A stretch of 27,936 bases of DNA, from positions 1 to 27,936 of IMG/VR virus record IMGVR_UViG_3300025168_014602; one strand, written 5' to 3'. Of this stretch, positions 3,865-18,476 are shown piece after piece. Below the pieces are notes generated by a model. It was given only the letters and a program-made list of their open reading frames with translations, ran no database searches and was not told where the DNA came from. Made by a program: the position numbers and the translations under genes. Every line of letters begins with the position of its first letter. Within the stretch, counting starts at the first letter, position 1. The stretch is from a virus.

Positions 3865-5319
3865 TTATAAAACTTTTATATTGTAAAATTGTTCAAATTC
3901 CTGTGCATCCTTTTTTGTGTTAACCATTGGCTGTCCTTTAATATTTAAACTAGTATTTAATAACATTGGACAACCTGTTTTATCATAAAATAATTTTAAT
4001 AAAGCATAAAACCCCGGATTATCTTTTTTAGATACTGTTTGAACTCTACTTGTGTTATCTACATGACATATTGCAGGATATTTATCAGGATATTTACATG
4101 TTGCTGTATATTGCATATATGGAACTTTATTAATAGGCATATCAAAAATTTCATGAGCAAATTCTTCCATAATTGCTGGAGCAAATGGTCTAAATTTTTG
4201 TCTTCGTTTTATTTCGTTAACTTTATCTTTTATTTTACTACCTCGCGGATCTGCTAATAAACTTCGATTACCTAATGCCCTAGGGCCGAATTCAGCTGGA
4301 CCATTAGCTATTCCAATTATTTCTCCTTTAATTAATAAGTCGCATGCTGTTTTTACTGGATACTCGCCTTTAATGTTAGATCCTAAAAATGCAGTTTTCC
4401 ATGTTATATGTTTTCCATATATAGCAGCCGCAGCTCCTAATGAAGAACCGGCATCTCCTGGGTTTGGCATTATCCATGTATTATTATAATATTTAGGAAG
4501 TATTTTTCCATTAGCAACACAATTTAAAGCACACCCACCCATATAAACCAAACTATCTATATTAGGTAATATTTTTTTAGTATGATTAATAATTCGATCT
4601 AATATATGTTCTGTTAACGTTTGCGTGCTAGCTGCTACATCCCAATTTTTCCATTTATCACAATACGATCCTAAACCTTTATGTAAATTATAGTTTAATT
4701 TTAATAATTTAGTTGTATCAAATAAATCAGATTCTATTTGTTTCCAATGATTATCTTTACCCCACGCAGACATACCCATTAGTATATATTCTTCTTCACA
4801 TGGTTTTAAATTAATTGCCTGTGTTGCAGCTGAATAAAATAATCCAAGTGAGTGTGGATATTTTATACTATATATTTTTTTAATATTATTACCCTTACCA
4901 TGCCATATTGTTAAAACATCCCATTCTCCAATTCCATCTATTACTAATATAGCTGCTTCTTTATATGGGGAGGTATAATATCCTGCCGCTGCATGACTTA
5001 AATGGTGATCAACATATTCAATTTTATAATCTTTAAACCATTTATTTAAATAGTTTTTAGGTAAATTTTTAAGGTTAAATACTTCACTGTATTGTCCAGC
5101 ATATAGTTGTCTTGATTTTTTTATCCATGGACGCTCATAATATACTATTTTATCAGGTTTTCCATAACTCAACGCTTCATTAATTATAGCATCATTAAGA
5201 TACATATCGTTTTTAATTCTACTGTATCGTTCTGAATGAGCTGCAAATACAATATTACCATTGTCTATGACTGAAACAGCTGCATCGTGATTAAGACAAT
5301 TAATTCCTAGTATTCTCAT
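3865..5319 (-). CDS. Carbamoyltransferase, NodU/CmcH/TobZ family (copy A)
   Basis: A 484-residue O-carbamoyltransferase. Known members use carbamoyl phosphate and ATP, make a carbamoyl-adenylate in the N-terminal Kae1-like domain and pass it to a sugar hydroxyl. Seen here: NHDAAV near residue 10, DHHLSH with H105 and H109 plus D128 at the same spacing as the metal ligands of TobZ, GGCALNCVANG at 261-271, and the C-terminal YrdC-like part with GPRALGNRSLLADPRG (345-360) and MLLNTSLN. It is shorter than the more usual 540-600 residues and ends abruptly after the LNTS motif, lacking the last strand that the second copy keeps. It follows the tiny basic ORF by 4 bp and is joined without gap to the next methyltransferase. 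Confidence 0.92.
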   Translation of the reverse strand: MRILGINCLNHDAAVSVIDNGNIVFAAHSERYSRIKNDMYLNDAIINEALSYGKPDKIVYYERPWIKKSRQLYAGQYSEVFNLKNLPKNYLNKWFKDYKIEYVDHHLSHAAAGYYTSPYKEAAILVIDGIGEWDVLTIWHGKGNNIKKIYSIKYPHSLGLFYSAATQAINLKPCEEEYILMGMSAWGKDNHWKQIESDLFDTTKLLKLNYNLHKGLGSYCDKWKNWDVAASTQTLTEHILDRIINHTKKILPNIDSLVYMGGCALNCVANGKILPKYYNNTWIMPNPGDAGSSLGAAAAIYGKHITWKTAFLGSNIKGEYPVKTACDLLIKGEIIGIANGPAEFGPRALGNRSLLADPRGSKIKDKVNEIKRRQKFRPFAPAIMEEFAHEIFDMPINKVPYMQYTATCKYPDKYPAICHVDNTSRVQTVSKKDNPGFYALLKLFYDKTGCPMLLNTSLNIKGQPMVNTKKDAQEFEQFYNIKVL

Positions 5320-5434: not shown

Positions 5435-6099
5435 ATCGTTTTAAAATATTTATTAATTAACTTTAAAGCTGCCATATCCGCAGTTTTATTTGGATGGGGG
5501 TCTTTAATTATAACATTCGTTGGAGCAATTATATTCCAATAACGTCTTAAAATTGTAGTACCATTTAAAGGATTGTTTTTATGATAATATTCCCAAAATT
5601 CTTCATCTAAACATTCTTCTTCGTCTAAACCATATCCGGATTTTCCTTCATATGATAAATACAAATGTTTTAAATTATTAGATTTTAAAAAAGTTAACAT
5701 GTTATTATCTGCATCATCACTAAAATTATATGGATGCCTTAACGGATATCCACCTACATTATATAAAAAAAATACAACATTATCATGTAATTTATTTATT
5801 TCTATTATAGTTTGTTTATATTTGTTAAGTAGTTCTGTTGCCGCAGTTTCCTCTCCATTCGTTTTAATTTGTTCAATAAAATTATAAAATCTTTGTGTAG
5901 TATCGTTAGATTTTATTATATCCCTAATAGGAGTAGGAAGTTGAATTACAATACCATCATAATTGTTTAAATTTTTAGATTGTAAATAATCTTGTATATA
6001 CCAAAGGCCTCTTCCACCAAATGATGCATATTCATAATTTGTATTGTATTTATGCATTTTTTGTACCCAACTACAACCAGTAATAAGAATATTTTTCAT
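5431..6099 (-). CDS. SGNH/GDSL-like hydrolase or acyltransferase
   Basis: A 222-residue protein that begins MKNILITGCSW, with Ser10 in a GCSW block I as in many phage SGNH proteins, followed by YASFGGRG (block II-like Gly), a strand YDGIVIQLPTP, and FLYNVGG in the position of block III. The end has KDPHPNKTA with Asp200 and His202 in the place of the catalytic Asp-His pair, though the spacing is D-x-H rather than the common D-x-x-H. Such proteins usually add or remove acetyl or other acyl groups on glycans. No membrane segment is present, so a cytoplasmic role is likely. It is coupled by ATGA overlaps to both the upstream DegT aminotransferase and the downstream small basic ORF. Confidence 0.6.
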   Translation of the reverse strand: MKNILITGCSWVQKMHKYNTNYEYASFGGRGLWYIQDYLQSKNLNNYDGIVIQLPTPIRDIIKSNDTTQRFYNFIEQIKTNGEETAATELLNKYKQTIIEINKLHDNVVFFLYNVGGYPLRHPYNFSDDADNNMLTFLKSNNLKHLYLSYEGKSGYGLDEEECLDEEFWEYYHKNNPLNGTTILRRYWNIIAPTNVIIKDPHPNKTADMAALKLINKYFKTI

Positions 6100-7016
6100 A
6101 TAAATTTCTCAATTTTATTAATTACATATAATATCTGTTCATCAGTTAATTCTTCATGAAATGGAATACTAGCAGTTTGTTTTGATAGTTTCGATGAATT
6201 AGGACAATTATCTGTTAGCCAAGGACTATACACTTCGTTTTCATGTAAAGCATCATAATGAATACCACATGTAATACCTTTCCCATTCATATATTTTATA
6301 AATTTTTTGTTATCATTTACTTTTATTCTATATAAATGATCACTTGTATTATTATACCCTAACTCACTATTATAAAAGTCTCTAATTTTCTTTAATTTTC
6401 TTTTTTTATAATCTAATAACTTTAAATTTTCATTAGCAATATAACATTGAATGGAGTTCATATACATTTTATAACCTGGAAATTTAATTTTTCTATCCCA
6501 ATTATTGTGAGAATAAGACATACCGTTCATAGTTGCTTCTTTAAACCATTTAATTTTTTCTTCGTCATTGGAAACAATAATTCCTCCATCCGAGCTTCCT
6601 ATAGGTTTAGTAGGATAAAAACTAAATATCATTAAATCTGCATCATTAGCTTCTTTATTAAATTGATTCAAATCTACTTTTTGGGCTGAGTCTATAATTT
6701 TATAATCTTCAAATTCATGTAATATATAAGAATCTCCTACCCATTCAGTATCATCAGTAAAATTTATTTTATTTCCGGAGGTTAAAACTGCGTTACATAC
6801 TACTGGGGGTATCATGCTAGGAACATTTACTGTAATATTTTTGTTTAACATTGATAAAAATATTGCATTTGTAGCACTATTAACCGTGCATGAATATTTT
6901 GCACCTACATATTCTCGAAAATTATGTTCAAATTCACTAACTATGTTGCCGTGTAGATAATGTGTAAACTTACTAGTATCTACATTATAATTTGGTATGT
7001 TAAATAAATTAATCAT
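6096..7016 (-). CDS. DegT/DnrJ/EryC1/StrS-type sugar aminotransferase (short form)
   Basis: A PLP-dependent aminotransferase of the family that puts an amino group on keto-deoxy nucleotide sugars. SATNAIFLSML (48-58) is the phosphate-binding region, IIDSAQ carries the PLP-pyridine Asp109, and SFYPTKPIG carries the Schiff-base Lys137, followed by DGGIIV as in the family. HYDALHENE and SIPFHEELT near the end match the C-terminal domain. At 306 residues it is shorter than the usual 360-400, mainly by compact loops rather than an obvious break; both ends look intact. A likely substrate is a 4-keto sugar such as the product of the PseB-like enzyme at 1586-2497. It overlaps the pyruvate-kinase-like gene by 8 bp and the SGNH gene by ATGA. 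Confidence 0.85.
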   Translation of the reverse strand: MINLFNIPNYNVDTSKFTHYLHGNIVSEFEHNFREYVGAKYSCTVNSATNAIFLSMLNKNITVNVPSMIPPVVCNAVLTSGNKINFTDDTEWVGDSYILHEFEDYKIIDSAQKVDLNQFNKEANDADLMIFSFYPTKPIGSSDGGIIVSNDEEKIKWFKEATMNGMSYSHNNWDRKIKFPGYKMYMNSIQCYIANENLKLLDYKKRKLKKIRDFYNSELGYNNTSDHLYRIKVNDNKKFIKYMNGKGITCGIHYDALHENEVYSPWLTDNCPNSSKLSKQTASIPFHEELTDEQILYVINKIEKFI

Positions 7017-7536
7017 TTTTAAAAATTACACCATTTAATTCTAAAATATTTACATTGTTATTTTTACAAACTTCGCGAGCTCTGTTTTTTAAATATAAAA
7101 ACAATTCTTGATCATTTAAAACATTAGTATATAGATCTTCTGCATCTAACATAATATATTTAATTGGATTATTTTTTAAGATTGTATCTAAATTTACAAC
7201 TCCTTTCCATGTTTCTATTTTTGGAACAAAACTAACATGACTTGGTATTGTATCAATAATCATTTGTGTTTCTGAATTAGTTTGTATATTGGAAACGGCA
7301 AAATATTTAATATTTTTATATTTTTGCATTGCGTTTAATGCATCTGGTATATGTAATGTAGGTACAGGTGGTTTAGTTCTGCCTTTTGGATAATCTAGAA
7401 ATATATCATGTGGTACTTTAAGATATTTGTCTAGTTCAGTCTGATTTTTTACATGTGCCATGTTTATTCTAATAACTACATCATTTAATGAGTTAAACTG
7501 AGACATTTCTGTTAAATGATTTGAAATAAGAATCAT
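7009..7536 (-). CDS. Miniature pyruvate-kinase-like (PEP/pyruvate TIM-barrel) protein
   Basis: The 175 residues align by eye, in order, with the catalytic A domain of pyruvate kinase. RINMAH (23-28) matches R(I/L)NxSH, IFLDYPKGRTK (45-55) matches the LLDxKGPxIRT strand, YFAVSNIQTNSE (78-89) matches the xxASFIRxxxD strand, VPKIETWKGVVNLDTIL (104-120) matches the AKIENxxGVxNxDEIL segment, and MLDAEDLYTNV (129-139) lies where ARGDLGVEI is. Lys106, Glu108 and Asp134 thus occupy the positions of the catalytic lysine and the two metal ligands. The B domain (expected between residues 55 and 60) and the allosteric C domain are absent, and the Ser of RxNxS is Ala. It may bind PEP or pyruvate, perhaps for glycan work, rather than act in glycolysis. 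Start ATG overlaps the upstream TGA. Confidence 0.6.
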   Translation of the reverse strand: MILISNHLTEMSQFNSLNDVVIRINMAHVKNQTELDKYLKVPHDIFLDYPKGRTKPPVPTLHIPDALNAMQKYKNIKYFAVSNIQTNSETQMIIDTIPSHVSFVPKIETWKGVVNLDTILKNNPIKYIMLDAEDLYTNVLNDQELFLYLKNRAREVCKNNNVNILELNGVIFKND

Positions 7537-7889
7537 GATTTTAATTGTTTCCTTATATTTGTTGCTGATATTTGTTTTATATCAATGGGAGGTTCGTGTT
7601 CTATTATATCATACCCAACAGTTCTTCCATAATTTACAGAATCTATAGGAGGTATTATTATAACAATAACTTTACCTTGATCTATTAAGTCTTTTAATTT
7701 ATTTTTTATATTTGCATAAACTTCCTCAGTAGTAAATGGATTTTTTTCTGGTTCTATTTCATGTATATCCATTATAGCTATACAAATCTTTTTACCCAAT
7801 TTTAACCGTTGATCAATTAACCATCTATGGCCATCATGAAATGGTTGATATCTTCCTATAAATAATGAATGCCTTGTTTTAAAATTCAT
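7533..7889 (-). CDS. Single-domain nucleotidyltransferase (NMNAT/cytidylyltransferase-like)
   Basis: A 118-residue alpha/beta phosphodiesterase-fold nucleotidyltransferase. GRYQPFHDGH (12-21) is the (H/T)xGH-type signature with His18 and His21, and ISATNIRK (107-114) is the C-terminal ISxTxxR motif that holds the triphosphate. EPEKNPFTTEEVYANI is typical of the NMNAT/NadR-like side of the family. It joins a nucleotide to a phosphorylated small molecule; the substrate is not clear. I start at the ATG at 7887-7889, overlapping the sulfotransferase end, rather than a TTG two codons upstream. Its stop overlaps the ATG of the pyruvate-kinase-like gene as ATGA, so the two may act in one pathway. 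Confidence 0.75.
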   Translation of the reverse strand: MNFKTRHSLFIGRYQPFHDGHRWLIDQRLKLGKKICIAIMDIHEIEPEKNPFTTEEVYANIKNKLKDLIDQGKVIVIIIPPIDSVNYGRTVGYDIIEHEPPIDIKQISATNIRKQLKS

Positions 7890-8529
7890 AATCAAATAAT
7901 TCTAAGTCTCGTTTATAATATGTCGACACAATTTCTATTAATTCGTTTGTATAATAATCTCTGTAATTTTTAACTCCAGGTCCATGTCTTGAATTCATAT
8001 GAATTAAATGTTTATCAAGTTTTAATTTATCTGCAATATAATTCCAATCTTCTTGTAGATTTTCATATTTACCTACAAAATCAACAAAGCTGTTATCTCT
8101 TGAAAATTCTGTATAATAATGTAATGGTAAAAAATGTTCATTTGTTAAAGTTCCATTTTTATTTAACCAACTTAATCCTGTAGTATTTTTTATAAATTCG
8201 TCAAACGTTGTGTGTTCATACATACCTTCTTTATTATATCGAAATGCATTCCAATTGGAAACCAATCTATCATATGGATTTCTAACAAACGTAAATGTAA
8301 AATAATTTTTTTCTCTATCAGTGTCTGTAATATTCCAAAACTTGCTAGAATAGTTATTATTAACTTCATGTCTATCATGTACTGAATGCATTGCATGTTT
8401 CCATATAGAAGTTCCTGCAGTTCTTCCTGGCTTCAGATAAATAAATTTTGATGATTCAGAATACATAACAGATACAGCATGCGGTCCTAATGTATTGTTC
8501 TTAATATGATTTTGAAAATTATAACTCAT
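7879..8529 (-). CDS. PAPS-dependent sulfotransferase (Sulfotransfer_2-like)
   Basis: A 216-residue sulfotransferase of the carbohydrate type related to chondroitin/dermatan sulfotransferases. YLKPGRTAGTS (31-41) is the 5'-phosphosulfate loop, with an Arg-Thr variant of the usual KTGGTS, and FVRNPYDRLVSNW (81-93) is the 3'-phosphate block. The C-terminal segment with YRDYYTNELIEIVSTYYKRD and LFDYEF is a well-known ending of this family. It should move sulfate from PAPS to a sugar hydroxyl. The eukaryotic relatives have a membrane anchor; this one has none, so it would act in the cytoplasm. It is preceded by the longest non-coding gap (49 bp) and may head a small transcription unit. Confidence 0.85.
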   Translation of the reverse strand: MSYNFQNHIKNNTLGPHAVSVMYSESSKFIYLKPGRTAGTSIWKHAMHSVHDRHEVNNNYSSKFWNITDTDREKNYFTFTFVRNPYDRLVSNWNAFRYNKEGMYEHTTFDEFIKNTTGLSWLNKNGTLTNEHFLPLHYYTEFSRDNSFVDFVGKYENLQEDWNYIADKLKLDKHLIHMNSRHGPGVKNYRDYYTNELIEIVSTYYKRDLELFDYEF

Positions 8530-13548: not shown

Positions 13549-15162
13549 TTATTTTTTACTTAATAAAATTCCATGATCTCTAAAATATAGATAATCAATA
13601 TTTGTATTTAAAAAACAATTAATTGCATGTTTTGGAGTTTCAACTATTGGCTCTCTATCATTAAAACTAGTGTTCAATAAGATTGGAACTCCTGTTTTTT
13701 CTTTAAATTTTTTGATAAAATTATAATACCACGGATTATCTTCTTGTTTGACTGTTTGTAATCTCGCTGTTCCATCATGATGTACAACAGCTGGGACTTG
13801 TTTTATTTTGTCTGGTTTAAATGGTATTGCAAAACTCATATATGGACTGTCTACATCGTTTATAAACCAATTGGTTACTTCTTCTCGCAATATAGATGGG
13901 GCAAATGGCCGGAACCATTGTCGATGTTTTACTTTTTCATTAACAATATCTTTAATTTCAGGATATCTAGGATCAGCTAAAATACTACGATTTCCTAACG
14001 CACGCTTACCAGACTCTGAACCTCCACCAAATATAGATATAATTTTTTTATCAATTATTTCATTTATAACATATTCGTCATCTACTTTGTTAATTACTAG
14101 TTTATCAGAATATTCATTAATTGTATTGTCAATTATATCTTTACTATATGTCTGTCCCAAATATGGCGTATGATTTTTAGGATTATTGTAAATTCTAGGA
14201 TTGTCATGTATATGATGCCAAATATATCTACATGAGCCAATTGTTAGACCAGCGTCATGAGGTATTGGATCACAGAAAATATTAATACCAGGAAACCAAT
14301 TTAACATTTTACCCATAGCAACACAATTTAAACTTACACCACCGGATAAACAAATATTTTCTGGTTTATATTTTTCTATGTATGGTGTTAATATATCGTA
14401 TAATACTGTTTCTGTTTCTTTTTGCAATGCAGCAGCAATATCAAATTTATTTTGTTCACTCTTATTTGCTTCTTCAGCTAAAAAATTAATATCATAAGGT
14501 CCCCAATTTTTAGTAAGACGTGCATCTTTTAAATTTCTAAAATATTTTAAATATTTATCTGGATTTCCAAATGCAGCCATCCCCATCACAGTTCCTTCTT
14601 CTCCGCGCTTTACTGGATTTCTATTTAAACCAAAAATGTGATATGTACAGGTATCCCAATATAAACCTATATTAATATTTCCGCGATCAAACATATGTAT
14701 TGGTTCTATTTTATTATCAATACCATTCCATATAGTAAAACTAGTTACAATACTACCGGGAGCTGTATGATCGTCTAAATCTTTCCATTGTACTTCTTGA
14801 CCGTTTAAAAAATCAACGCCTCCTCCGTCTATAGTTACTACTAATGCATTTTTATATGGACTAGTATAAAATGCATTGGCTGCGTGAGCTTGATGATGTC
14901 CTGAAATATACATTTTAGATTTTGGACAACGATTATTTACTTTAGATAATGAATCAGTATATTTTGTAATATTTCCAGTTCTATGAGTTGTATGATATGT
15001 AAAATCAGTCATTGTTTCGTTTTCTAAAAACAATTTAATAGAATCGCCTTTACATCCTTTTTCACGATTAAATCTTTCTAATTCATTATGAACACTAGGT
15101 AATCCGTTATCTAAAATACCATATGCTGCGTCATGTCCATTACTAAAACCTATTATTTTCAT
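13549..15162 (-). CDS. Carbamoyltransferase, NodU/CmcH/TobZ family (copy B)
   Basis: A second, full-length (537 residues) O-carbamoyltransferase. FSNGHDAAYG near residue 10, GHHQAH with His89 and His93, and Asp112 in TIDGGG reproduce the metal-site spacing of TobZ. SGGVSLNCVAMGKM, DAGLTIGSC, and in the C-terminal domain KRALGNRSILADPRYP, HRQWFRPFAPSI and ILLNTSFND complete the family set. Unlike copy A it keeps the final region (AINCFLNTNIDYLYF). The two copies share only the family motifs by eye, so they are likely to act on different sugars or positions rather than being a recent duplication. It is flanked by methyltransferase and glycosyltransferase genes with gaps of 1 to 3 bp. Confidence 0.93.
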   Translation of the reverse strand: MKIIGFSNGHDAAYGILDNGLPSVHNELERFNREKGCKGDSIKLFLENETMTDFTYHTTHRTGNITKYTDSLSKVNNRCPKSKMYISGHHQAHAANAFYTSPYKNALVVTIDGGGVDFLNGQEVQWKDLDDHTAPGSIVTSFTIWNGIDNKIEPIHMFDRGNINIGLYWDTCTYHIFGLNRNPVKRGEEGTVMGMAAFGNPDKYLKYFRNLKDARLTKNWGPYDINFLAEEANKSEQNKFDIAAALQKETETVLYDILTPYIEKYKPENICLSGGVSLNCVAMGKMLNWFPGINIFCDPIPHDAGLTIGSCRYIWHHIHDNPRIYNNPKNHTPYLGQTYSKDIIDNTINEYSDKLVINKVDDEYVINEIIDKKIISIFGGGSESGKRALGNRSILADPRYPEIKDIVNEKVKHRQWFRPFAPSILREEVTNWFINDVDSPYMSFAIPFKPDKIKQVPAVVHHDGTARLQTVKQEDNPWYYNFIKKFKEKTGVPILLNTSFNDREPIVETPKHAINCFLNTNIDYLYFRDHGILLSKK

Positions 15163-16674: not shown

Positions 16675-17118
16675 TTAATCCTTATATCTGTCTATATAAT
16701 CGCTACATATTGCATAACAATCATTAATATTGCCATTATAACCTAATTCTGGTAATACGCATATACTATTATAGTATAATAATTTATTTGGATAAGTCCA
16801 AATAAACCTATTAGATGTTATAGTATAATTGTCGTCTTGATGCCAAAAATATTTAAAGTTGTGTGGCTGTTCATTAAACCATCCTAATGCTTCTATATTT
16901 TTACAATGCAACCATAAGCTGTCTGATCGTTTTTTTAGCCATTCTAATGTAACTTCATAATCCGGATTATCATGTCCTAAGAAAAAAACACCCCAAGACT
17001 CTATCCTAATATCAATCTCAACATCGTACCCCTGTTGTATTGCATGATCAATATAATCTGGATGATTTTCTTCTTCAGTAGGCCCAGTTGTGTTTCCTCT
17101 ATGTGATATCAATTTCAT
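16675..17118 (-). CDS. Short GDPD/PI-PLC-like barrel protein
   Basis: A 147-residue protein with the beginning of a glycerophosphodiester phosphodiesterase: ISHRGN with His6 and Arg7, a run of acidic residues and NHPDYIDHAI, then GYDVEIDIR with Glu34 and Asp36, and FLGHDNPDY with His49. These are the catalytic and metal residues of the family in their normal order. Canonical GDPDs have about 240-350 residues, so the last part of the barrel is reduced, yet no frameshift or lost start is seen. The ATG overlaps the stop of the HAD-nucleotidyltransferase fusion. Here it may cleave or bind a phosphodiester-linked sugar intermediate rather than scavenge lipid; that is inference. Confidence 0.7.
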   Translation of the reverse strand: MKLISHRGNTTGPTEEENHPDYIDHAIQQGYDVEIDIRIESWGVFFLGHDNPDYEVTLEWLKKRSDSLWLHCKNIEALGWFNEQPHNFKYFWHQDDNYTITSNRFIWTYPNKLLYYNSICVLPELGYNGNINDCYAICSDYIDRYKD

Positions 17119-18476
17119 TTATAGTTATCTATATAATATTTTAAATCTTCTGGAGTTCCTAGTCCCCACATTTTATTTACATTAAATGTTCTTATTTGTT
17201 TTTTGTCTTGTATAGCTTGATTAAAAACTGGACAAACATAGAATTCGTTATTGACTCGTATGTTAGATTCTATCATTTGCTCAGCATACTTTACAAAATC
17301 TGAGCCATGTTTCCAATAGTAATATCCTACAGTTGCAATATCTGATATTGGATTCTTTTCAGCTACCTCAGTCACTAATCCTTTTTCATTAATCTTTGCA
17401 AAGCTCCATTTAGGGTGTGTTGCGGTAAACGACACAATACCTCCATCAGCATCAGTTTCATTCATCTTATACATAAATTCATTCGAATCCCATTCTACAA
17501 ATTGATCTGAGTTAGCAAAGAATAGCGGATCGTCGCTATTAATGTAGTCTTTAGCTAACAACGCTGTGCATGCTGCTCCTTCTGTCATATCATCAACTTC
17601 AACTACTTTACAATTTGGAGTAATTAAATTTAACAAAGTATCTAAATTATATTGTTCTCTGTGACTTTTTTGTACTACAAATATGAAATTAGCATCAATG
17701 TTTAAGTTTTCAACAACAAGCTGTATCATAGGTTTACCTTTTACTTCAATCAAAGGTTTTGGAAATGTATACCCGGCTTTCTGAAATCTGCTTCCAGCAC
17801 CAGCCATTGGAATTAGAACATTTAACTTTTTATCTACCCATTTTGGTTCGTCTGTGGATTCTCCCATATCTATTTCTTTTATCTTTTTGTTTATATTATC
17901 ATATATAACTTCTATTGGATTTTTAACTCTTAATATATGTGAGTTAGATCGAGATGCTGCTAGTAAACCATATGGCGAGTCTTCAACAATTAATGTTTCA
18001 TTTGGTAAACAACTCATCATTGATATGGCTTTCCAATACATTTCTGGATGTGGTTTAGAATTCTTTACATCTTCATTAGATATCACAAGATCCATATATT
18101 CCATTATTCCTAAGTTAGATAGCACTGTTAGTACAGTCTTTCTAATAGAGTTAGAACACACTGCAATCTTATATCCTTCATCAACAAGCTGTCTCATACA
18201 TTGACATAGTTGAGGTGATCGTTTTAATTTTTTAAGAGCTGTTAAGGTGTATTGTTGTTTTTTAATCCAAACCTCTTCATGTTTGCTTCGTGGTAAATTT
18301 TTTAAGTTGCTTAACTTGTTTAACTTTTCATTTGTTTTCAATCCATCATACATTGATAAATGTTCATCCCAGCTTATATGATAGTTAAGTCCTAGAGCCT
18401 TGTTTAACGAATCATAATGTATGTTTTTAGCTTCTACTAAAACACCATCTAAATCAAATATAATCAGTTTAATCAT
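17115..18476 (-). CDS. HAD phosphatase fused to a sugar nucleotidyltransferase
   Basis: A two-domain enzyme of 453 residues. Residues 1 to about 200 form a HAD hydrolase of the beta-phosphoglucomutase type: FDLDGVLVE (7-15) with Asp8 and Asp10, CSNS (107-110), KPHPEMYW with Lys141, and VEDSPYG (164-170). Residues from about 217 form an NTP_transferase: LIPMAGAGSRF (221-231), FPKPLIEVKGKPM (238-250), EGAACTALLAK and ANSDQFVEW (321-329) where the metal-binding Asp lies. This would make an NDP-sugar and handle a sugar phosphate in one chain. It resembles GlmU/RmlA-type transferases, but the base and sugar used are uncertain. Several lines of it have clearly more G/C than the gene at 15891, hinting at a separate origin. 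Coupled to both neighbours by ATGA. Confidence 0.88.
   Translation of the reverse strand: MIKLIIFDLDGVLVEAKNIHYDSLNKALGLNYHISWDEHLSMYDGLKTNEKLNKLSNLKNLPRSKHEEVWIKKQQYTLTALKKLKRSPQLCQCMRQLVDEGYKIAVCSNSIRKTVLTVLSNLGIMEYMDLVISNEDVKNSKPHPEMYWKAISMMSCLPNETLIVEDSPYGLLAASRSNSHILRVKNPIEVIYDNINKKIKEIDMGESTDEPKWVDKKLNVLIPMAGAGSRFQKAGYTFPKPLIEVKGKPMIQLVVENLNIDANFIFVVQKSHREQYNLDTLLNLITPNCKVVEVDDMTEGAACTALLAKDYINSDDPLFFANSDQFVEWDSNEFMYKMNETDADGGIVSFTATHPKWSFAKINEKGLVTEVAEKNPISDIATVGYYYWKHGSDFVKYAEQMIESNIRVNNEFYVCPVFNQAIQDKKQIRTFNVNKMWGLGTPEDLKYYIDNYK

Follow-up and report, generated by a model that had tools for sequence, protein, structure and literature searches.

A seven-stranded pyruvate-kinase-type barrel encoded beside nucleotidyltransferases in marine viruses and archaea

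What role could a protein of 175 residues with the catalytic motifs of pyruvate kinase (PK) have in a viral glycan cluster? This question is raised by a marine virus whose complete record of 27,936 bases was analysed and is referred to here as the window. The ORF spans exactly positions 7009-7536 on the minus strand and begins with ATG. A sequence-only reading had described it as a gene coupled to both of its neighbours, and this arrangement was recovered: a 4-nt ATGA overlap joins it to the upstream nucleotidyltransferase gene (7533-7895, minus), and 8 nt are shared with the downstream sugar aminotransferase gene (6096-7016, minus). The coupled upstream partner is a small HIGH-type nucleotidyltransferase of about 115 AA that resembles NMN adenylyltransferases (family c5; Pfam CTP_transf_like, E 9.7e-7; NCBIfam NMNAT, E 1.5e-11, below the cut-off). 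Upstream of it lies a gene for a sulfotransferase-like protein (7879-8529, minus; Sulfotransfer_2, Pfam E 1.4e-18), a candidate transferase. The downstream gene encodes a PseC-like DegT/DnrJ aminotransferase (Pfam E 6.3e-37; NCBIfam PseC, E 1.1e-28, below the cut-off), which places the barrel in a glycan context.

The sizeable genes listed for the window are located on the minus strand and form a glycan cluster, which comprises SDR enzymes, the DegT aminotransferase, the sulfotransferase, glycosyl- and methyltransferases and two Nol-like carbamoyltransferases (3865-5319 and 13549-15162, both minus). A Polysacc_synt_2 gene of the PseB type (1586-2497, minus), together with the PseC-like gene, suggests an amino-dideoxy sugar of the pseudaminic acid or bacillosamine kind. 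Two further genes of the window are worth recording. The 147-AA product of 16675-17118 (minus) has a start that resembles glycerophosphodiester phosphodiesterase and no significant family match, and is perhaps another shrunken TIM barrel in the glycan cluster. The gene at 17115-18476 (minus) encodes 453 AA, in which a HAD phosphatase is joined to a sugar-nucleotidyltransferase domain.

Fold and active site of the barrel

The window protein by itself is a borderline case for profile searches. Its best single-sequence match is the Pfam HpcH/HpaI family PF03328 (E 4.9e-4; 19.9 bits, under the gathering score of 25), followed by an NCBIfam PK subfamily (E 0.0022), a PHROG (E 0.011) and the Pfam PK family PF00224 (E 0.019; 14.5 bits against a gathering score of 30), with the NCBIfam and Pfam PK matches likewise below the cut-offs. 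Other members of the family, termed c1 here, reach E 2e-6 with HpcH_HpaI, and at E<=0.01 this model matches 21 of 29 members, compared with 13 of 29 for PK. For a profile built from ten c1 sequences, the best 60 PDB matches were exclusively PKs (E 2.8e-5). As a family, c1 has no entry of its own in Pfam, PHROGs or NCBIfam.

Profile-profile alignment with hhalign gave E 4.9e-10 against whole PK and E 4.8e-11 (probability 97%) against PK from which the B domain had been removed, in the latter case collinear from end to end. With columns shuffled 25 times, the control for the B-domain-cut comparison came no lower than E 0.027, and reversal gave 0.51. Against CitE, the value was slightly weaker (E 2.1e-9; best column-shuffled control 0.0079). 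An AlphaFold model of the window protein, based on 26 family sequences, has a pLDDT of 94.1, a pTM of 0.89 and seven strands (residues 3-5, 21-25, 44-49, 76-81, 102-107, 127-130 and 163-166). Strands 3 and 4, which in PK are separated by the B domain, are linked by 26 residues in c1, and the chain stops after strand 7, so that both the C domain and the eighth barrel strand are absent. Alignment and model thus agree with the earlier description of a PK A-domain of about 175 residues without B and C domains. The alternative suggestion that the protein is one half of a dimeric barrel was dropped on strand count, as seven of the eight strands are present and only strand 8 is missing, both here and in the model of the fused homologue described below.

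In Foldseek, the window model superposes on PK and CitE/HpcH barrels with a probability of 1.0 (best E 3.1e-6), and the 50 PDB matches listed for it comprise pyruvate kinases together with barrels of the CitE/HpcH/malyl-CoA lyase type and their close kin. A fold search of BFVD returned no good match. The comparison with PDB pyruvate kinases and HpcH aldolases that had been recommended at the outset led to the same superfamily by profile and by fold.

The PK site is conserved. Seven residues that are invariant in 22 of 22 PKs (R73, N75, D113, R120, K270, E272 and D296) correspond to seven c1 residues that are invariant in 49 of 49 sequences with identities down to about 25%. These are R23 (codon 7468-7470) and N25 (7462-7464) of the RxN motif on strand 2, D48 on strand 3 (7393-7395), R53 (7378-7380), K106 at the end of strand 5 (7219-7221), and the two metal ligands E108 (7213-7215) and D134, which follows strand 6 (7135-7137); all codons are on the minus strand. 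Lys106, Glu108 and Asp134 had been singled out from the sequence as the equivalents of rabbit K270, E272 and D296, and they were confirmed at these positions; in the model, the end of strand 5 carries both K106 and E108, and D134 comes shortly after strand 6, an arrangement also seen in PK. The equivalences come from the profile alignment; that of R53, obtained with hhalign, is less certain, with a two-residue gap adjoining. An assignment of R53 to the K+ site position E117 was considered after PMC4374775 and dropped because hhalign places R53 at R120. Two further PK positions differ. T328, a threonine in 22 of 22 PKs, is not kept, and no Thr is conserved where strand 7 ends. The K+ ligand S77, which is S or A in the PK alignment, is alanine (A27) in 48 of 49 c1 sequences, as it also is in a few archaeal PKs.

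The loss of T328, the B domain and strand 8 would be compatible with a non-catalytic protein that binds a metabolite or serves as a structural partner of the nucleotidyltransferase. This explanation is given little credence, as the whole metal and phosphate site is invariant across the same 49 divergent sequences.

A natural fusion occurs in an archaeal genome. The gene L105:388-1329 (minus) encodes 313 AA, in which a PK-type barrel is followed by an RfaE-like nucleotidyltransferase (CTP_transf_like, E 3e-19) that begins a few residues past strand 7. With 37-38.7 bits, this protein exceeds the Pfam cut-off of 30 for PK; it reads IMVDVEDLAFEIG where PykF has IMVARGDLGVEIP. Its barrel domain was modelled with a pLDDT of 92 and shows the same seven strands without strand 8; all 50 PDB matches listed for this model are PKs (E from 1.8e-9, TM about 0.72, 22% identity). 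A PQ-loop gene follows the fusion gene.

Since the listed fold matches are PK and CitE for the window model and PK throughout for the fused barrel, the modelled structures settle the superfamily as that of the PEP/pyruvate barrels (PK and CitE/HpcH), with PK as the nearer side. A carbon-carbon enzyme of the CitE/HpcH type, which would join pyruvate or another keto-acid enolate to a phosphorylated aldehyde, or cleave such a product, and leave the acid phosphate to be activated by the nucleotidyltransferase, has to be weighed here. It draws on the shared superfamily, the HpcH_HpaI matches reported above, the hhalign result for CitE and the CitE-type lyases among the top Foldseek matches of the window protein. 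However, the order of motifs in c1 is that of PK, with RxN on strand 2, KIE on strand 5 and D after strand 6, whereas the CitE sequences carry RxN one strand later, on the third strand, and have no lysine before IE. The invariant lysine, D48 and R53 are likewise PK features, the fused homologue matches PKs alone among the folds listed, and c1 lacks both strand 8 and the C-terminal part of CitE. A carbon-carbon enzyme is therefore considered rather unlikely. As judged from sequence profiles and models, c1 is a PK-type barrel; the name pyruvate kinase proper is withheld, since it has neither B nor C domain and lacks strand 8 and T328.

Distribution and gene neighbourhood

A query of viral contigs with the single window protein missed all relatives in the first scan. 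Scanning for the motif DxPKGRTK recovered relatives of the same length with 35-60% identity, and alignment-based scans extended the family to about 30 distinct marine viral contigs, all of them from assembled metagenomes. In the INPHARED phage records, no relative of the window protein was found, and the fused archaeal domain gave marginal matches only. The family also occurs in about 20 marine archaeal genomes, including Nitrosopelagicus, other marine group I thaumarchaeotes and a marine group III euryarchaeote. Strong matches were found in 20 of 250 genomes of a thaumarchaeal family, and matches stronger than 1e-19 in 2 of 390 genomes of another archaeal phylum. The conserved length of about 175-190 residues indicates a complete protein and not a broken gene.

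Two distinct nucleotidyltransferase families accompany the barrel in viruses, namely the NMNAT-like c5 and a second family, c11, that resembles RfaE domain II and glycerol-3-phosphate cytidylyltransferase (GCT). One of them is found within two genes of the barrel in 20 of 28 distinct viral loci, directly upstream in 15, with c5 at this position in seven. A LicD gene is located directly downstream in 6 of 28 viral loci, and in two viral loci a PQ-loop transporter sits between. A further viral locus (L186) has, as read by eye, its nucleotidyltransferase two genes upstream (-2) and a LicD-like gene two genes downstream (+2). Sulfotransferase-like genes lie within two genes in 8 of 28 viral loci, while the remaining common neighbours are spread over many positions. 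In archaea, c5 or c11 adjoins the barrel in only 1 of 22 loci, and a sulfotransferase is directly downstream in 8 of 22. The expectation that homologues would always stand beside adenylyltransferases was thus not upheld for these two families. The context points to nucleotide-activated phospho-headgroups.

Several observations on individual loci were made alongside. In L187:1184-3109, c1 is flanked, as read by eye, by one gene resembling the N-terminal half of transketolase and another resembling the C-terminal half, and an alcohol dehydrogenase gene precedes them. L086 holds a second, shortened barrel copy of 126 AA. In both viruses and archaea (L025, L031, L034, L039, L080 and L086), the barrel and the small nucleotidyltransferase repeatedly have an APS-kinase-like protein nearby, which at about 140 AA is shorter than APS kinase itself, and phrog_10255 may be a fusion of these two companion proteins.

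In four thaumarchaeal loci (L085, L086, L088 and L091), the barrel is located beside a cluster of PEP mutase, split TPP decarboxylase and Fe-alcohol-dehydrogenase genes. A strong PEP mutase match is present in 7 of 20 c1-bearing thaumarchaeal genomes and in 14 of 230 others (Fisher p 4e-4, uncorrected for kinship and genome incompleteness). PEP mutases were counted only at PF13714 E<=3e-56 because PF13714 also picks up another protein that nearly all these genomes possess, which makes the bare presence of a match uninformative; the presence of APS kinase is near-universal and likewise uninformative. These associations, together with the parallel between the barrel-nucleotidyltransferase fusion with its LicD neighbours and the PEP mutase-PntC fusions (PMC6697681), would fit a mutase-like enzyme that rearranges PEP and so provides the nucleotidyltransferase with a carbon-phosphorus compound. 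Such an enzyme is distinctly improbable: no PF13714 match was reported among the c1 members scanned, the site is that of PK, and a true PEP mutase is already present wherever phosphonate genes are near.

Proposed function

The reading preferred here, with a probability of roughly 40%, is that c1 is a PEP-dependent, nucleotide-free small-molecule phosphotransferase that supplies a headgroup for the nucleotidyltransferase and, subsequently, for attachment to a glycan. The single-domain, seven-stranded barrel would keep the PEP/Mg2+ site of the PK A-domain, although strand 8, the C domain and the B domain that clamps the nucleotide have been lost. It would bind PEP and Mg2+, and in place of ADP a small acceptor such as an alcohol would receive the phosphoryl group (X + PEP -> X-phosphate + pyruvate, in the direction we infer). 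The adjoining and once fused nucleotidyltransferase would then turn X-phosphate into NDP-X, from which a LicD-type or sulfotransferase-like enzyme could move phospho-X onto a surface glycan. Direct transfer from PEP to an acceptor is the simplest reading of a PEP site without an ADP lid, and the neighbouring or fused nucleotidyltransferase implies that c1 probably makes a phosphate headgroup rather than energy. A role in glycan synthesis over glycolysis, as originally proposed, is favoured by the glycan cluster and the nucleotidyltransferase context; the pyruvyl or C3-unit chemistry suggested with it found no support of its own.

The PK-type site next to a nucleotidyltransferase could also be explained by local NTP supply, in which a PK reduced to its core would convert CDP or ADP back to the triphosphate for its neighbour. 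However, c1 has no B domain, the part of PK that folds down on the nucleotide. Moreover, the host is expected to possess its own NDP kinase, and we know of no precedent for an NTP regenerator fused to a nucleotidyltransferase, so that the odds for this explanation are long.

Several results count against a PEP-dependent phosphotransferase as well. These are the lost T328 and the alanine at S77, the small difference between the PK and CitE alignments, the larger number of HpcH_HpaI than PK matches, the rarity of an adjoining nucleotidyltransferase in archaeal loci, and the PEP mutase, a maker of its own phosphorus compound, in 7 of the 20 archaeal genomes. The wider proposal is put forward more tentatively still: a new family of natural one-domain PKs of about 175 residues that would act as PEP-using small-molecule kinases without a nucleotide and, with the nucleotidyltransferase, form a PEP-driven route to NDP-headgroups in marine viruses and archaea. 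In the libraries and open literature searched, no PK that naturally lacks the B and C domains is named, and no paper on B-domain-less PKs or PK-like glycan proteins was found in the open literature searched. If active, c1 would be an unusually small PK-type barrel that reveals the portion of the fold sufficient for PEP chemistry, and it would add a PEP-driven entry to the nucleotide-activated headgroup pathways with which viruses and ammonia-oxidising archaea dress surfaces. It would also give a family left unnamed in databases a testable substrate class.

Comparison with known systems

With the PK A-domain (PF00224), c1 shares the fold, strands 1-7 in order, the R-N-D-R-K-E-D site and the KIExxxG and IMxxxxDL motifs. 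It differs in the absence of the B domain, C domain, strand 8, T328 and S77, and in a setting of glycan decoration instead of glycolysis. The HpcH/HpaI aldolases and citrate lyase beta (PF03328) belong to the same PEP/pyruvate barrel superfamily and have the IExxxG and DL metal motif, but CitE places RxN on another strand, has no lysine before IE, and retains strand 8 and a C-terminal part that c1 lacks.

The Campylobacter MeOPN pathway (Cj1415-Cj1418; PMC11800397) combines an APS-kinase-like protein, a nucleotidyltransferase and group-transferring enzymes such as are found near some c1 members. The c1 barrel, however, is no part of that pathway and only adjoins, in the archaeal loci L040 and L084, a gene set with the domains of the phosphoramidate pathway proteins Cj1418-Cj1417-Cj1416.

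In phosphonate pathways that include LicD-like transferases, about 60% of the PEP mutases, which are PEP barrels too, are fusions with a nucleotidyltransferase (PMC6697681). These PEP mutase-PntC fusions resemble c1 in that a PEP-type barrel is fused or adjacent to a nucleotidyltransferase with LicD-like transferases nearby, and they show that PEP barrels do feed nucleotidyltransferases in surface pathways. The c1 barrel belongs to a different family without a PF13714 match, and its partner is RfaE/GCT- or NMNAT-like. RfaE/HldE offers a similar case, with a kinase at its N terminus joined to a nucleotidyltransferase of this type (model NF008454).

The phosphorylcholine operon licABCD encodes a kinase (LicA), a permease (LicB), a cytidylyltransferase (LicC) and a transferase (LicD) (PMC10434233). 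Both systems combine a permease, a nucleotidyltransferase and LicD with one enzyme expected to supply the phosphate ester. They differ in that a PQ-loop protein replaces LicB and the c1 barrel replaces the choline kinase LicA; it is because the gene set mirrors licABCD that the barrel would stand in the kinase's place.
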